From Planctomycetota bacterium (GTDB lineage Bacteria > Planctomycetota > UBA8108 > SXIK01): DNA of 41,027 nt. Position numbers and translations under genes: made by a program. Each line of letters starts with the position of its first letter. The first letter of the stretch is position 1. The notes below the pieces were generated by a model. The model was not told the origin of the DNA and ran no database searches. It saw only the letters and a program-made list of their open reading frames with translations. The stretch covers positions 1 to 41,027 of the forward strand of contig JACQVW010000601.1 of NCBI GenBank assembly GCA_016209535.1, read 5' to 3'. Shown here piece after piece: positions 33,679 through 41,027 of this stretch.

Positions 33679-34926
33679 TCAGTACCGGCCGCAGGCGTAC
33701 GCCGCGTCGAGCATGGCGATCGCGTTCCGGGGCGGCACGTTCGCCATGACGTTGTGCACCTGGTTGAAGACGTAGCCGCCTCCGGGGGCGAAGGTCTCGA
33801 TGCGCTCGCGGACCATGCGCGCGACGTCGTCGGGCGTCCCGTGGTGGAGGACGGTCTGCGTCTCGCAGCCGCCGCCCCAGAAGGTGACGTGGCGTCCAAA
33901 CTCGCGCTTGAGCTCGGCCGGGTCCATGCCCACGGCGCTCGTCTGGACGGGGTTCACGACGTCGATCCCGCAGTCGATGAGGTCCGGGAGGAGCTTCCGG
34001 ATCGAGCCGCAGGAGTGCAGGAAGACCTTCAGGCGCGAGCGCTCCTTCACGGCGCGGAAGATCCGCTCGTGGCGCGGCTTGAAGAGCCTCCGGTACATCG
34101 CCGGCGAGATGAGCGGGGCCTGCTGCGAGCCGAGGTCGTCGCCCATCTGGATCAAGTCGACGTTGTCCCCGACGGCCTCGAGCAGCTTCTCGAGGTTCTC
34201 CAGGTGCACCTCGACGAGGAGGTCGAGCGCGCGGCCCGCCTCCTCGGGGTCGCTCGCGAGGAGCGAGAGAGACTCCTCCATGGAGTAGAGGTAGTTGAGC
34301 CACTCGAGGAGGTTCCCGCCGAAGCCGACCATGATGGCCCGGTCCGTCGCGCGGCGAGCCTTCGCGGCCGCCTCCTTGAGCCAGCGCCAGAAGCCGGGCT
34401 CGGAGGCCCTGTCCCAGGGCGGGGACGGGAGGTAGGCCCACACGACCTTCGCCATGGCCTCGCGCACCTCGCGAGCGGTGCGCGGCGCGGGCCGGCCGCG
34501 GAACGGGAAGTGGGTCTGCTCCACGTAGAGGCAGCCGCGCGGCTGCGCCGCGAGGAGGAGGCCGTCCCGGTCTCGGATCTCGAGCGTGCCGTCGGGGCCG
34601 AAGGCGGGCTCGAACCAGCCCGGGACGAGGGCCGGGCTCCCGTCGGGCAGCGTCCAGCCTTTCCAGGAGTCGCGCGGCGGAACGACGAGGTGCCCCAGGT
34701 CGGCGACGTCCACGTGAAAGCGCTCCAGCACGTCGTCGTCGGGAATCGCGAGCTGCTGGACGAGGTCGTACATGCGCGGCTCCCGGCCCGCGAGCCCCAG
34801 CTCCTTCAGGAGGCGCCCGTAGGCCACGGCCATGATCCCCGTCGACCGCATGCCGCCGAAGTCGATCGGCACCCGGTCCGGCTCCCTCCGCTCGATCGCC
34901 GCGAGGACTCGCTCGCGCGAGGTCAT
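33679..34926 (-). CDS. Uroporphyrinogen-decarboxylase (URO-D) family protein, methyltransferase-like
   Basis: The 415-residue cytoplasmic protein has the URO-D/MtaA/CmuA TIM-barrel fold. It opens TSRERVLAAIERREPDRVPI, the usual start for the group. Key residues are H304 and C306 in FLHSCGSIRKLLPDLIDCG, and C354 in TFWGGGCETQ, matching the His-x-Cys...Cys zinc site of corrinoid-linked methyltransferases rather than heme-pathway URO-D. QMGDDLGSQQAPLISPAMYR (260-279) is also typical. This suggests methyl transfer to or from a corrinoid or thiol, or a related role in degradation; no corrinoid protein gene lies in the window. ATG 34926 is chosen because the family motif begins there; ATG 34947 would add seven residues. 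It follows a broken Gfo/Idh/MocA gene by 34 bp on the same strand. Confidence 0.8.
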   Translation of the reverse strand: MTSRERVLAAIERREPDRVPIDFGGMRSTGIMAVAYGRLLKELGLAGREPRMYDLVQQLAIPDDDVLERFHVDVADLGHLVVPPRDSWKGWTLPDGSPALVPGWFEPAFGPDGTLEIRDRDGLLLAAQPRGCLYVEQTHFPFRGRPAPRTAREVREAMAKVVWAYLPSPPWDRASEPGFWRWLKEAAAKARRATDRAIMVGFGGNLLEWLNYLYSMEESLSLLASDPEEAGRALDLLVEVHLENLEKLLEAVGDNVDLIQMGDDLGSQQAPLISPAMYRRLFKPRHERIFRAVKERSRLKVFLHSCGSIRKLLPDLIDCGIDVVNPVQTSAVGMDPAELKREFGRHVTFWGGGCETQTVLHHGTPDDVARMVRERIETFAPGGGYVFNQVHNVMANVPPRNAIAMLDAAYACGRY

Positions 34927-34960
34927 GGCAGGTCCGCCTCGGGGCATGCCGGCACCCGCC

Positions 34961-35444
34961 TCAGATCCGCCACGGGGCCCGGTTGGGCCGCGAGAGCATG
35001 GCGTTGGCCTCGGCGTCGTCCAGGAACCGCTCCGCCTTCGGGTCCCACCGCAGCTTCCTCCCGAGCACGTAGGCGATGTTCCCGAGGATGCACAAGGTGC
35101 AGACCGCGTGGCCCGCGTCGATGCACAGGATCGGGTCCTTGCGCTTCCTCACGCAGTCGATGAAGTCCTGCTCGTGGCCCGGGCTCCTGTACGGCTCGAC
35201 GCCGCCCGCGGGCGGCTCGTAGAGCATCGCCTTCTCCTCGGTGGTCGCAGATCGCGACGCAGGCGTCGCGGAAGTTGTTCAAGTGCCCGCGGCCCATGCC
35301 CCCCATGCCGATGTGCCCCGTGACGACGCGCTCCGATGGCGCCGCGGCGCCCAGGAAGCCCCGCGGGAAGAGGGCCGGCGCCGCGAGAACGCCGAGGCAC
35401 CGCCGGAGGAAGCGCCGCCGATCGATCGTGACGGGTCGGGCCAT
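34961..35444 (-). pseudogene. Gfo/Idh/MocA-family oxidoreductase lacking its middle
   Basis: ATG 35444 starts a Tat-type leader (IDRRRFLRRCLGVLAAPALF), then the opening of a Rossmann domain (VTGHIGMGGMGRGHLNNFRD, ACVAICD) characteristic of these secreted NAD(P)-dependent sugar or inositol oxidoreductases. After about 66 residues, near 35240, the sequence jumps frame to the normal C-terminus: GHEQDFIDCVRKRKDPILCI, CTLCILGNIAYVLGRKLRWD and ANAMLSRPNRAPWRI, stop at 34961. Intact members are about 400-450 residues; here only about 160 remain, so some 800-900 bases of the middle, including the substrate domain, are absent. It should be inactive if the sequence is correct. A misassembly could produce the same picture. 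It lies between the sigma-fusion gene and the URO-D gene. Confidence 0.75.
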
Positions 35445-35536
35445 GGCCCACTCACGTCTAACGGCAGCCTGGCCTCGCGGACCGTGCTCGAAGTCACGGG
35501 TGGAGTCCGCGGGGCGGCCCGGAGCAGCGAGAGCGC

Positions 35537-38500
35537 TCACTCTCCCGCCGGCACCTGCAGGTCGCGCTCGAGGTCGCCCTCGATCTCGAGCGGCTCGAGG
35601 GGCGAGCTCTTCCCGGCCTGCCCGGAGATCTCCACGCGGTACCTCCCGGGCTCGAGGCCGAGGAAGTGGAACCGGCCGCCGTGCTCGGCGGTGACCGTGG
35701 CGGCAAGCTCCGCGTAGGGCCACTCGAAGTCGGGCCGGAGGGTGAGCCGGGCGCGGTCGAGGGGCTTCCCGTCGGGCCCCAGCAGGCGGCCCTGGAAGGC
35801 GTGCGGCCCCAGGCCGGCGCCGAAGTCGATCCCCTGCTCGGCTCCCGCCTGGATGCGGAGCGGCCTCTGGATGCTGAGCCCGGCGGTGCGCTTGCCCGGG
35901 GTCTCGCGCCAGTGCTCCAGGACGTACTCTCCGGCCGTAAGGTCCTCGACGCGGAAGCGGCCCCCGGCGTCCCGGTCGAGGTTCCCGATCCACTCCCTGG
36001 CGGACTCGCCGCCGCCCCGCCTCCTGTAGAGGACGAGGAAGCCCCGGTTCGATGGCCTCCCGTCCTCGAAGAGCACCCCGCTCAGGGCACCCCCCGGCTC
36101 GAGGGCCACCTGCAGCCTACCCGAAGCGTCGATGAGCCCTTGCCACGCCGCGGGAGACAGCGCCAGCCGCGCGTAGCCGGGCCGGTGGACGAAGAGCGTC
36201 CCCGGCTCACCCTCGCGCACGCGGAACGCGCCGTCGGGCCCGGTCCGGAGCTCCTGGCGGTCGGGCATCTTCCGGAAGGAGCCCTCGTCCCAGGCCAGGT
36301 CGCCCGGCTCCCAGGCCCCGAAGACCACCCGCGCCCCTGCCAGGGGCGCCCCGCTCGCTCCGTCCACGACGGTCCCGTCGATGGATCGACCTCGGGTGAT
36401 CTTCACGTCGTGGACGGGGGCTCGCTCCTCGGGCTCCGCCGCGAGGTCGCGGACCCACTTCGGGATGTACCCCTCCGCCTCCACGAGGAGCTCGATCGGA
36501 CCCTGATCCAGCCTCTCGAGCTCGAAGCGGCCCTCGGCGGAGTTGAAGTGCTCGCCGGGGTCGCTGCGGTGGTAGTCGTAGTAGCCGACGCCCTTCTTGA
36601 GCTTCACCCCGAAGACCGCGACCGGCTCTCCCGTCTCGCGGTCGAGGACGCGCCCGCGGATGACGCCCCAGCGCAGGAGGCGGAGCGTCACGCACCGGTC
36701 CACATCCAGCTCCGGGTGGTAGTTGTTCGCCCAGTCCCCGCCCGGCGGCCCCTTGAGCCGGAGCGCCGTCGTGGGGCCCGAGAGGTCCCGCAAGGCGAAG
36801 CGCCCGGCCGCATCGGTCCGGGCCCCCCGGATGTTGCCGGGGTGCAGCGGCGTATTGCGGAGCAGGTAGATCGTGGGCATGGCGCGCACCTCCGCGCCCT
36901 CCACCGGCCGCCCGCCCTCGTCCACCACCTCGCCCTCGAGCCACCGCCCCGCCGCCAACGCGAAGTCCACGCGGGCCGGCTCCTCCTCCGTCCCGGGGCG
37001 CACGCCTTCCCGGACGGCCGGCGCGAAGCCCGCTCCGGAGGCGCTCACCGCGCACCAGTCCTGCTCTCGAGGGAAGACGAGGCGATACGAGCCGTCGCGG
37101 GCGGTCTGCGTGACCGCGCGCCCCTTGTGCTCGCCGTGCGAGTGGATCCACTGCACGTGGATCCTCTCGAGGGGCGCTCCTCCGGGCCCGGTCACGCGCC
37201 CCTCCACCACGGCGTCTCCGCCCGGCCGCTCCTCCATCACGATCGAGAGCTCCGAGCGGTCCCGATCGGGCTCGATCTCGTAGTCGCGGGTCCAGACCTC
37301 GTGGTACCCCGGCTTCCGGGCGTTGACCTGCTGCTTCCGCCTCCGGCCGATCCCGCCGAGGAGCGCCTTCCCGTCCCGATCGGTGAGGCGCGTGTACACC
37401 TCTCCGTGGACGTAGCCCCCGTTGGGCTGCGCGGGGGTCACCTGAACGCCCTCCAGGGCCTTGCCCTCGGAGTCCACCACGGTGACCAGGAGCTCGACCG
37501 CCCGCTCGAGCCGGAAGTCCTGGAGGAACTCTCCGCCCTCGTCCACGCGCGCCCGCGCGTGCTCCTCGGCGTAGCCCTCCGCCGCCGCGATCAGGTAGTG
37601 CTCCCCGGCGGGGAGCCCTTCGAGGCGGTACGCGCCGTCTTCGCCCGCCGCCGCCTTCGCGTCCGAGCCACGCACGCGGACCTCGGCGCCCGGGACGGGA
37701 TCGCCCGTCTCGGCGTCGCCGACGAGCCCCGCGAGGACCGCGCTGCCCTCGGGCGTCGAGGTCTCGGAGGCGTCCTTCTCGGCGTCCTCGGCCTCCTCGG
37801 CCTTGGTCCCCACGGGGCCCGCGTCGGCCGGGGGAAGGGGCGCCGGAGGGACGGGGGCCGCGACGCGGACGGCGGCGAGCCCGGCATCCGGGCGCGCCGC
37901 GGCCGGCTCCTCCCTGCGCGGCCGCCCGAAGTGGACGGCGAGCCCCAGGAGGACGAGGAGCGAGAGCAACGAGGCGGTGGCGATGGTCTTGAGCTTCATG
38001 ACGGCGACTCCTGACAGGACCCAGCGAGCCGCCATGAGGACGGAGGAGCCGGTCCCGGCCTCCGCGCCGGGGCCGGCGGCGGAGGCCAGCCCCGCGGCCT
38101 CCGCGCCCCGTTCCGCCCACAAGAGCGGCGCGAGGGCCGCGCACCAGGCCGCGCGGCCGCCGTGGAGCCGGTCCAGGCGCTCGCGGAGGCGCTCGACCGC
38201 CTTCCGCACGCGCCAGCGCGCGGTGGTCGCGTCGATCCCCTGCCGCCTGGCGATCTCCTCCGCGCTCCAGCCCTCGAAGTAGCGGAGGAGGACCGCCGAG
38301 CGGTACGGCTCCTCCAGGGCCAGCACGAGGTCCACCACTTGCCCGTGGAGCTCGACGCGCTCGAGCAAGTCCGCGGGCGTGGCGTCGGACCTCTCGGGCC
38401 GGGCCGCGGCCCGCTCCCGGCGCTCGCGGCTCCGCTCCTCCCGGCGCGCCCGGAAGGCGAGCCGGCTCAGGACCGTGCGCAGCCAGGCGCCCAGGGCCCC

Positions 38501-38665
38501 GGCCTGGCGAGGCGGCCGCTCCATGGCGCGCAGGAGCGACTCCTGGACGAGGTCCTCGGCCAAGGCCTCGTCGGCGACGAGGCTCCGCGCCAGGGACCGC
38601 ATCCAGCCCGTGTGGGCAAGGAGATCGGCGACGGGGATGTCCCTTCCGTCCTTCATGGGGTCCAT
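35537..38665 (-). CDS. ECF-type sigma factor fused to a transmembrane helix and carboxypeptidase-regulatory-like repeats
   Basis: One 1042-residue open frame. Residues 13-80 are sigma region 2 (MRSLARSLVADEALAEDLVQ and ESLLRAME) and 103-165 are region 4 with its helix-turn-helix (YRSAVLLRYFEGWSAEEIAR and RQGIDATTARWRVRKAVERL). A linker leads to one transmembrane helix, ATASLLSLLVLLGLAVHFG (229-247). The rest, about 250-1042, is extracytoplasmic and contains several CarboxypepD_reg-like beta-sandwiches, for example VPGAEVRVRGSDAKAAAGED, AVVEGRVTGPGGAPLERIHV, VDEGGRPVEGAEVRA and RGRVLDRETGEPVAVFGVKL. Known sigma-extension proteins of Planctomycetota suggest the outside part controls or senses for the sigma part; the signal is unknown. 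ATG 38665 has a weak ribosome binding site. An internal ATG at 37999 with CAGGAG eight bases ahead could give the membrane part alone. Confidence 0.85.
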   Translation of the reverse strand: MDPMKDGRDIPVADLLAHTGWMRSLARSLVADEALAEDLVQESLLRAMERPPRQAGALGAWLRTVLSRLAFRARREERSRERRERAAARPERSDATPADLLERVELHGQVVDLVLALEEPYRSAVLLRYFEGWSAEEIARRQGIDATTARWRVRKAVERLRERLDRLHGGRAAWCAALAPLLWAERGAEAAGLASAAGPGAEAGTGSSVLMAARWVLSGVAVMKLKTIATASLLSLLVLLGLAVHFGRPRREEPAAARPDAGLAAVRVAAPVPPAPLPPADAGPVGTKAEEAEDAEKDASETSTPEGSAVLAGLVGDAETGDPVPGAEVRVRGSDAKAAAGEDGAYRLEGLPAGEHYLIAAAEGYAEEHARARVDEGGEFLQDFRLERAVELLVTVVDSEGKALEGVQVTPAQPNGGYVHGEVYTRLTDRDGKALLGGIGRRRKQQVNARKPGYHEVWTRDYEIEPDRDRSELSIVMEERPGGDAVVEGRVTGPGGAPLERIHVQWIHSHGEHKGRAVTQTARDGSYRLVFPREQDWCAVSASGAGFAPAVREGVRPGTEEEPARVDFALAAGRWLEGEVVDEGGRPVEGAEVRAMPTIYLLRNTPLHPGNIRGARTDAAGRFALRDLSGPTTALRLKGPPGGDWANNYHPELDVDRCVTLRLLRWGVIRGRVLDRETGEPVAVFGVKLKKGVGYYDYHRSDPGEHFNSAEGRFELERLDQGPIELLVEAEGYIPKWVRDLAAEPEERAPVHDVKITRGRSIDGTVVDGASGAPLAGARVVFGAWEPGDLAWDEGSFRKMPDRQELRTGPDGAFRVREGEPGTLFVHRPGYARLALSPAAWQGLIDASGRLQVALEPGGALSGVLFEDGRPSNRGFLVLYRRRGGGESAREWIGNLDRDAGGRFRVEDLTAGEYVLEHWRETPGKRTAGLSIQRPLRIQAGAEQGIDFGAGLGPHAFQGRLLGPDGKPLDRARLTLRPDFEWPYAELAATVTAEHGGRFHFLGLEPGRYRVEISGQAGKSSPLEPLEIEGDLERDLQVPAGE
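38008..38013 (-). promoter_or_regulatory. Candidate internal ribosome binding site CAGGAG
   Basis: CAGGAG stands eight bases before an in-frame ATG (37999, residue 223), just ahead of the transmembrane helix of the sigma fusion. It is stronger than the site before the full-length start, so a shorter product without the sigma domain is possible. Confidence 0.4.
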
Positions 38666-38836
38666 TTTCGTACGTCCACCCGATGAGAGCGAGCGGCCGG
38701 CGGCCGCGAGAAGGGATTCCGGCCGCGGGGCCGCGGGGCTGGGACCGAGCACGCAAGGAAGATGTGGGCGCAAAGGCCGGTTTTCAGTAGGATTGGGCGT
38801 TGGGTCAGGTACTTCACACCCCCACGGGAGGGTCCC
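38666..38836. other. Divergent promoter region of sigma fusion and secreted dockerin-like gene
   Basis: The 171-base gap contains a somewhat AT-richer patch (ggttttcagtaggattggg, about 38782-38800) that may be a plus-strand promoter. No certain ECF-type -35/-10 pair could be called. Confidence 0.35.
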
Positions 38837-41027
38837 ATGCACGCCTGCGAGAACCGTCCGCTCCGCCGCTCTGCCGCCGTCGCCGTCACGGGCTTGTTCT
38901 TGGCCGCCGCCGCGCGCGCCCAGGACGCTCCGTTCCTCAGCTACGACTTCGAGGACGAGGGCGGCCTCGATGACTTCCTCAACCCCACGCAGATCAGCTT
39001 CTGTGCCGGCGGGATCATCCCCACCGGGGCGGGGACGATCGACTCGGGCGAGCTCCTCATCACGAACGACGGCACCCTCGGCATAGGTGCGGTCGTCCTG
39101 CGGCCCGACGTGGTCGAGAGCCAGTTCCCCGACGGTCCGCGCAACTACGCCGTCAGGTTGAGGGTCAACCTGGAGAGCGTGAACGAGCTCCTCGTCTACA
39201 TGCGAACGAGGATCGGGATCGACGAGGCCGCGGGACAGATCGACTCGATGCTCGAGCGGGGCTACCCGGTCGTGGTCATCCCGCAGAACTTGGATCCCGA
39301 GCTCGTGAACGGCGTCCTGGCCATCGCGGAGTTCACCGGCTGCCACACCCTCATACCGCACACCGAATGGCCCGGATCGGCCGGCACCGGTTTCGCGCGC
39401 GCCGACCCCGGCGTGCCCATCGCCCCGGGCGACTGGTACTGGCTCGAGATCTCCTCCCAGGGAGATGACGACGCCGGCCCCATCCTCCTGAACGCGAAGC
39501 TGTGGGCCGATGGCGATGACCCGCCGTCGAGCCCGCAGCTCACCATCTTCGACCGCGACGGGCTCAACCTCGACGACCCGACTCGCGATCCCGCGACGGA
39601 GGTGCAGCTCCTGCTCGGGACCTCCTACGACTTCGGCCAGCAGCCCGGCGCCACCTGCCGCGTCGACGACATCACCTTCACGCAGCTCAAGGGCTGCGAC
39701 ACGGCCCCCGCCAAGGCCGCCAGGACGCTCTGGGGCGACACCACCGTGGCACAAGGCTCCGAGGTCTCCATCTACACCGCGGGCACGCAATACGACGTGT
39801 CCATCGCCCTCTCGGACCTCCGGGCGGCCGGCGCCTGCGCCTCGCCCTCGGTCGTGACCGTGACCGAGACGCTGCCCACCGGGTGGACGGCGAGCCGCGT
39901 CACCGGCGGCGGCGTGCCGCGCGGCAACGTGATCACCTGGACCGTCAACGTCGCCGCAGGCCCTCCTGCGGAGCCCCTCAAGTACAGGGCGAAGGCCGCC
40001 GGGGCGGGCCTCGTCAACTTCCAGGGCGAGCTGGGCGAGCCTGGCAGCACGTTCAAGTTTGTCGTGGAGGGCCCGAACCTCGTGGCGGATGAGGCCGTGG
40101 TCGCCCCCGTGAGCGACTTCGGCAGCATCCAGCACTGGCTGATCCTGGGGCCGTTCACGCGACAGGTCGGGGGTGCGGCGCCCGGCGACGATCAGATCGT
40201 CCGCGACTACCTGACCGACGGCGCCGTCACGGAAGCCGACATCCTTCCGGAGGCGGGCGACGCGATCGAGCCCGACTACGGCGGCGAGGCGGCCTCGACG
40301 GGCCTCGCGGCGAACGTCTTCGGGCGCAACCCGCTCGACGTCCCCACCTGGATCGCGTGGCGCGACTTCGACGATGCCGACGACCGGATCGATTTCGAGG
40401 CCGTCTACGGCGACGTGGACGAGGTCATGTGCTACGCGGTCACGTACCTCGACGTCTCGGAGGACACCGTCGTCAACTTCGGCGTCTCGAGCGACGACTC
40501 CGTCCAGATCCTCCTCGACGGGGAGGAGCTCCACAAGCACAACGTCCCCCGCGGCGCCCTCGGGCGCAGCTACCAAGACACGCCGTTCGGGTTCCCCAAC
40601 CTGGAGAACGTGTCCCTCTCGAAGGGCCAGCACGTCCTCCTGGTCAAGGTCTTCGAAGGCGGCGGCGAGCACAACTTCCGCGTGGGGTTCCTCGACGAGG
40701 CCGGCGTCGGGATCCCCGGGGGGACCGGCGAGGTCTCCATCTCCCTCACGCCGGCGGAGGTCGTGAAGGAGGACTGCACGAACGGCGGGGACGACGACGG
40801 CGACGGCAAGGCCGACTGCGCCGACCCGGACTGCGCCACGTTCCCGGCCTGCCTGCTGCCGAAGTTCGTCCGCGGCGACGTGGACTCGAGCGGCGTGATC
40901 AACCTCACCGACGGCCTCCGCGTCCTCCTCTTCCTCTTCCAGGCCGGAGCGCGGCCGGAGTGCATGGACGCCGGCGACTCCGACGACTCGGGCGGCGTGC
41001 AGCAGACGATCACCGATGCGATCGCCA
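38837..41027 (+). CDS. Large secreted protein with PA14-like and dockerin-like segments, 3'-partial
   Basis: The frame from ATG 38837 is open to the window edge (730 codons). A signal peptide (VAVTGLFLAAAARAQ) precedes a beta-sandwich region starting FLSYDFEDEGGLDDFLNPTQ, which resembles lectin-like or laminin-G-like folds. A later block, VNFGVSSDDSVQILLDGEEL then KGQHVLLVKVFEGGGEHNFR (about 550-625), is PA14-like, a carbohydrate-binding module. A Cys-containing Asp-rich motif, CTNGGDDDGDGKADCADPDC, comes at about 647-666. A first dockerin-like loop, DVDSSGVINLTD, is clear; the second, DSDDSGG then VQQTITDAI, carries about two extra residues against consensus. GGGAGG lies shortly before the ATG. 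It diverges from the sigma-fusion gene with a 171-base shared intergenic region, so regulation by that sigma factor is conceivable but unproven. Confidence 0.8.
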   Translation, partial: MHACENRPLRRSAAVAVTGLFLAAAARAQDAPFLSYDFEDEGGLDDFLNPTQISFCAGGIIPTGAGTIDSGELLITNDGTLGIGAVVLRPDVVESQFPDGPRNYAVRLRVNLESVNELLVYMRTRIGIDEAAGQIDSMLERGYPVVVIPQNLDPELVNGVLAIAEFTGCHTLIPHTEWPGSAGTGFARADPGVPIAPGDWYWLEISSQGDDDAGPILLNAKLWADGDDPPSSPQLTIFDRDGLNLDDPTRDPATEVQLLLGTSYDFGQQPGATCRVDDITFTQLKGCDTAPAKAARTLWGDTTVAQGSEVSIYTAGTQYDVSIALSDLRAAGACASPSVVTVTETLPTGWTASRVTGGGVPRGNVITWTVNVAAGPPAEPLKYRAKAAGAGLVNFQGELGEPGSTFKFVVEGPNLVADEAVVAPVSDFGSIQHWLILGPFTRQVGGAAPGDDQIVRDYLTDGAVTEADILPEAGDAIEPDYGGEAASTGLAANVFGRNPLDVPTWIAWRDFDDADDRIDFEAVYGDVDEVMCYAVTYLDVSEDTVVNFGVSSDDSVQILLDGEELHKHNVPRGALGRSYQDTPFGFPNLENVSLSKGQHVLLVKVFEGGGEHNFRVGFLDEAGVGIPGGTGEVSISLTPAEVVKEDCTNGGDDDGDGKADCADPDCATFPACLLPKFVRGDVDSSGVINLTDGLRVLLFLFQAGARPECMDAGDSDDSGGVQQTITDAIA

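Follow-up and report, generated by a model that had tools for sequence, protein, structure and literature searches.

A membrane-tethered ECF sigma factor gene of Planctomycetota that probably also encodes a sigma-less twin by internal initiation

On its reverse strand the window, by which we mean the whole stretch of 41,027 nucleotides analysed here, carries an uninterrupted frame at 35537-38665 that translates into 1042 residues followed by a stop codon. Within this frame a sigma part, a linker, a transmembrane helix and an ectodomain follow each other. The frame is open further 5′, with a GTG at 40672, and stays open as far as the end of the window; alignment to the family described below places the start at the ATG at 38665 or at 38656, and the coordinates given by the sequence-only reading that had drawn attention to the gene are thus correct. 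Remains of a Gfo/Idh/MocA oxidoreductase lie next to it on the same strand (34961-35451). Their middle is missing, the Tat-like N-terminus is in the frame 34923-35993 and the GFO_IDH_MocA_C2 tail (34961-35227) in another frame, which reflects either a deletion or an assembly fault. On the forward strand, a divergent gene (38762-41026) codes for a secreted protein whose first residues resemble a signal peptide and whose C-terminus is rich in aspartate and dockerin-like. This protein gave no Pfam match and may be one of the targets of the neighbouring sigma factor.

Judged by its domains and its predicted fold, the N-terminus of the window protein is a complete ECF (group 4) sigma-70 factor. Sigma70_r2 was found at residues 17-78 (38432-38617; PF04542; E = 2e-9) and Sigma70_r4_2 at residues 109-160 (38186-38341; PF08281; E = 2e-10), both above the curated cut-offs of Pfam, and the sigma70-ECF model TIGR02937 scored 63.6 bits against a cut-off of 42.9. 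Regions 2 and 4 are present in 47 of 47 family members scanned with Pfam; across 81 family sequences L29, Q41 and L117 are invariant and D38, P120, R152 and R161 almost so. An AlphaFold2 model of residues 1-260, based on the 81-row family alignment (mean pLDDT 82.8), contains regions 2 and 4, a juxtamembrane helix (residues 171-196), a low-confidence stretch (201-230) and the transmembrane helix (225-246). The best PDB matches of the sigma model are ECF sigma factors, for example SigL, AlgU, sigmaE and SigW. Whole-chain TM-scores against these are low (0.2-0.4) and region 4 alone fits 2h27 at 1.7 Å; we read the low scores as a different placement of the two sigma domains in the model. ECF sigma factors are normally under the control of a separate anti-sigma factor. 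Between region 4 and the membrane, Pfam gave no match to an anti-sigma (zinc-finger, ZAS) domain in the window protein or the scanned members; in the window protein this segment is a helix followed by a low-confidence stretch with one cysteine. An anti-sigma gene was not seen beside the window gene.

The window protein has a single transmembrane segment, at residues 228-246 by hydropathy (mean 2.20) and at 225-246 according to AlphaFold2 (37928-37993, reverse strand as for all features of the gene). The charge pattern around the segment fits an N-in/C-out orientation in 75 of 100 members and the opposite one in 9, which suggests that the sigma part is inside and the ectodomain outside. About 790 residues are C-terminal to the helix. 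They begin with a low-complexity stalk rich in proline and alanine (residues 247-308; 37742-37927), with low pLDDT at 271-306, and continue with the ectodomain (residues 309-1042; 35540-37741), in which CarboxypepD_reg (PF13620) was detected in seven stretches (E = 2.5e-63, 210.8 bits versus a cut-off of 32.3). The AlphaFold2 model of residues 271-1042 (12-row alignment, mean pLDDT 78.6) is nearly all beta, with about eight units by our own count. Translation, Pfam, hydropathy and AlphaFold2 thus bear out what had been proposed from the letters, namely that sigma regions 2 and 4, one transmembrane helix and a tail of about 790 residues share one frame, and the profile searches suggested at that time assign the sigma part to sigma families and the tail to CarboxypepD_reg, all above curated Pfam cut-offs. 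The same reading held that the length and the number of sandwich domains single out this copy. This found no support: family frames commonly have about 500 to 1600 residues and CarboxypepD_reg is present in 33 of 47 members scanned, with ectodomains that vary within the family. The own genome of the window has a large repertoire of surface beta-sandwiches and sigma factors, with 133 matches to CarboxypepD_reg and 97 to Sigma70_r2.

Measured by its sequence, the window gene is an ordinary member of a large family of Planctomycetota. A profile of 21 family members (A1; E <= 1e-25) found the family in 74 of 294 Planctomycetota genomes, with 22 copies in the complete genome of Planctomycetes bacterium Pla86 (G175, CP036296.1) and 21 in another (G031). 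Among named genomes, members came from Pla86 and from metagenome-assembled genomes (MAGs) of Planctomycetota. Directly after the sigma part, a motif LDxxHGGDRxAWxxALxPLA is conserved across the family; in the window protein it reads LDRLHGGRAAWCAALAPLL (38120-38176) and lies in the juxtamembrane helix. In the own genome (9.1 Mb in 906 contigs) a close paralogue on contig C37 is 58% identical in the sigma part and has a different, FGE-sulfatase-like ectodomain. Family-level sigma factors scored more than about 100 bits, and ordinary ECFs from these genomes stayed under about 87 bits. All family-level sigma factors examined whose contig did not break off first continue in frame into a transmembrane segment, with the exception of L121 (G024:C35), a family sigma in a frame without such a segment and probably a frameshifted or broken copy. 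Among the ordinary ECFs of the family genomes there are free-standing ones, and in some cases a separate transmembrane gene follows just downstream. Relatives in which separate genes encode the sigma and the membrane part had been named beforehand as the observation that would speak against a self-tethered sigma factor; at family level none was found in the genomes examined. Since homologues across the phylum have the same architecture, the fusion in the window is not due to chance, and its conservation over many genomes rules out an assembly or frameshift artefact as its source.

The fusion is, however, not the whole story, because a putative ribosome-binding site followed by an in-frame start codon had gone unnoticed in the same frame. 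In the window gene this element (tcAGGAGtcgccgtcATGaag) consists of AGGAG (38012-38008), 8 nt upstream of the ATG of Met223 (37999-37997), in frame and just before the transmembrane helix. Translation from this ATG would give a frame of 820 residues (35537-37999) with transmembrane helix and ectodomain but without sigma part. When the DNA before the membrane segment was compared between the window gene and 41 other loci, GGA Gxx xxx xxx ATG emerged as a recurring pattern. An element was counted when GGAG or GAGG ended 3-12 nt upstream of an ATG, GTG or TTG that was in frame and near the transmembrane segment, and as null model the stretch was recoded synonymously with each gene's own codon usage, so that the protein was kept. 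In the discovery set the element was present in 23 of 40 members, as compared to 6.2 ± 2.0 expected and a maximum of 13 in 300 recodings. Members from other genomes gave 36 of 60 versus 8.4 ± 2.3 expected (maximum 17 in 1000 simulations), with a scoring window slightly wider than for the discovery set but identical for data and simulations; here the spacing between SD and start has its mode at 8 nt. Loci of named genomes, which partly overlap with the 60 (Pla86 is G175), had it in 8 of 17 cases. At the level of the family, the SD and the in-frame start are conserved beyond coding constraint. About 40-45% of the members do not have the strict element, among them the nearest paralogue in the own genome (G000:C37, L039:2367-4685), which has GGAGGT before the transmembrane segment and no start codon there; the second start is therefore not obligatory. 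For the window copy alone, recoding yields SD and start in 16% of the draws (with the 5-nt SD), so that its case rests on the family and, taken singly, its internal start is no more than suggestive. More distant ECF-transmembrane fusions with a longer linker were also seen (L040 in G000:C890, L278-L281, L285, L287 and L288), and on inspection these too have GGAG or a near form with ATG or GTG at the edge of the membrane segment, for example L040, L279, L280 and L285.

The element is bound to the start codon and to its place in the gene. Near the membrane segment, 48 of 75 in-phase GGA|G have an in-frame ATG after them; elsewhere in the same genes this holds for only 15 of 463 (Fisher p = 9e-36). 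In receptors of the same layout, in which a kinase is joined to a transmembrane segment, four family genomes showed no excess (3 of 31 versus 3.1 expected). Taken together, the enrichment and its absence from these receptors make it probable that the family genes give rise to two products, the tethered sigma factor and a sigma-less twin, which in the window gene would have 820 residues. As to the part of the original proposal in which sensor and sigma factor are carried by one chain, the tethered fusion stands, and the internal element suggests that the gene does not make this chain only. Of 12 genomes searched, 4 had 16S-like 3′ ends with the anti-SD sequence CCTCC; the search for such ends gave no match in the other 8, the window's own genome included. 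An SD is present at the internal start of 36 of 60 members and at 10 of 60 assigned starts of the sigma genes, gene starts being uncertain. In the Planctomycetes of a published analysis, SDs are used by few genes (PMC5397173).

The difference in SDs between the internal and the assigned starts could also be taken as the trace of a disguised two-gene operon. Here a once separate membrane gene would have left its start inside the frame, sigma factor and membrane protein would act mainly as separately made products, and the fused chain would be a tolerated by-product. SD, start codon and a positive stretch before the membrane segment do resemble the start of a normal membrane protein, and SDs are rarer at the assigned sigma starts. 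Nevertheless, this is unlikely: no split member was found, the linker is open in essentially all uncut copies without a stop codon fixed between sigma and membrane part, and a cytoplasmic anti-sigma domain is absent from the short product. Intragenic SD-like sequences have been proposed to act as ribosome brakes near transmembrane segments. Since the element lies directly upstream of such a segment, the full-length tethered sigma factor might be the sole product and GGAG-ATG a translational pause or membrane-targeting signal. We consider this rather improbable, because the motif is tied to an in-frame start at a spacing typical of starts, because GTG replaces ATG in a minority of members (14 of the 55 with a strict in-phase element) and because the kinase receptors are not enriched. 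That the sigma part no longer works and has become the vestigial cytoplasmic domain of what is chiefly a surface protein is very hard to reconcile with the presence of regions 2 and 4 in every member scanned and the many positions kept over 81 sequences.

The least credible explanation is that the pattern has no translational function and was inherited from a recent ancestor or is forced by a Gly-X-X-X-Met motif of the protein, for although the members are homologous and a glycine before the methionine is common (consensus GxxxM), the members are so far apart (the median end branch of the sigma tree is 0.46 changes per amino-acid column) that silent sites should be saturated, common descent alone therefore does not explain the element, and protein-preserving recoding falls far short of the observed count. 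Codon choice points in the same direction: the glycine 3-5 codons before the ATG proximal to the membrane segment is GGA in 29 of 38 cases, but the conserved glycines of HGGDR in only 3 of 44 and all glycines in 805 of 5124, and GGA is mostly followed by a codon for Gly, Ala or Val, all of which begin with G. On the sigma tree, presence and absence of the element are scattered and weakly clustered (26 changes versus 32.5 in shuffles).

Membrane-bound fused ECF sigma factors and bacterial genes with two starts are already known separately. ECF48, ECF52 and ECF53, with SCO4117 of Streptomyces coelicolor as model, have membrane-bound C-terminal extensions and their proteolytic release has been proposed (PMC8999054, PMC5826349). 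Like them, the window family combines ECF sigma factor, transmembrane segment and extracytoplasmic part in one chain. However, these groups are actinobacterial and have a zinc-finger anti-sigma-like domain before the membrane segment, whereas the family described here is from Planctomycetota, no zinc finger was found in it, and the conserved internal start is its own feature; ECF52 carries a carbohydrate-binding module where the window protein has CarboxypepD_reg units. IutY of Pseudomonas putida (ECF243) is likewise a sigma factor fused to a membrane part and is activated by regulated proteolysis involving Prc and RseP (PMC8999054), but there the fusion partner is the anti-sigma factor of an iron-starvation surface-signalling system, a domain that the window family with its many paralogues does not have. 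Planctomycetal ECFs with WD40 C-terminal extensions (ECF57), which are expanded in Gemmataceae (PMC8999054, PMC8567305, PMC11032199), share the lineage-specific expansion and the long repeat C-termini. Membership in this group was rejected, since the C-terminus of the window protein is of the CarboxypepD_reg type; the 25 Pfam families found most often in the 47 members scanned do not include WD40. One frame with two in-frame starts, giving proteoforms with different roles, is known from CheA-L/CheA-S, ClpB, infB and CcmM (PMC11005335). No sigma factor is among these examples, and in the window family, which is phylum-wide, the second start is at the edge of the membrane segment and would part the cytoplasmic output from the receptor. 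An internal start in membrane-bound fused ECFs was not reported in the literature searched, a body that lies outside the key ECF classification papers; relative to that literature, the conserved internal SD and start in a family of tethered sigma factors is new.

We therefore favour, as the likelier account, a gene for a membrane-tethered ECF sigma factor that also makes a sigma-less twin by internal initiation. The long form would unite sensor and sigma factor in one chain, with the sigma factor in the cytoplasm, the juxtamembrane helix, an N-in/C-out transmembrane segment and, outside, a rod of about eight CarboxypepD_reg-type units. By analogy to IutY and the ECF52 model, tethering would most likely keep the sigma factor off its promoters until regulated cleavage close to or within the membrane sets it free. 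The own genome does encode M50 site-2-type proteases; M50 proteases are near-universal, so that their presence is weak evidence for proteolytic activation. For the short form, ribosomes would bind to the in-frame AGGAG and initiate at the ATG before the membrane segment, giving transmembrane segment and ectodomain without sigma part. Because the internal start has an SD more often than the assigned starts do, we expect the short form to equal or exceed the long one in abundance, and propose that just some of the surface sensor subunits bear a sigma factor. The gain could then be set by the short form, which would compete with the long one for a shared ligand, for assembly partners or for the protease. 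The sequences establish the fusion and its conservation in the family as well as the SD-start element and its conservation at the nucleotide level, whereas expression of both forms, the topology, the cleavage and the role of the short form are inferred.

It is tempting to speculate that these are phylum-wide one-gene systems with nested in-frame starts, in which the ratio of the starts fixes the share of receptors wired to transcription, and on balance we lean towards this view. What stands out is a large family in an understudied phylum in which no anti-sigma domain is recognisable and a start codon hidden inside the frame is conserved at the edge of the membrane. Our test for SD and start can be transferred to other fused signalling proteins. 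If the second product is confirmed, one protein product of these genes escapes annotation and proteomics, and the ratio of receptor to output would be written into one mRNA; if real, a single gene would control how much sensor is wired to gene expression.
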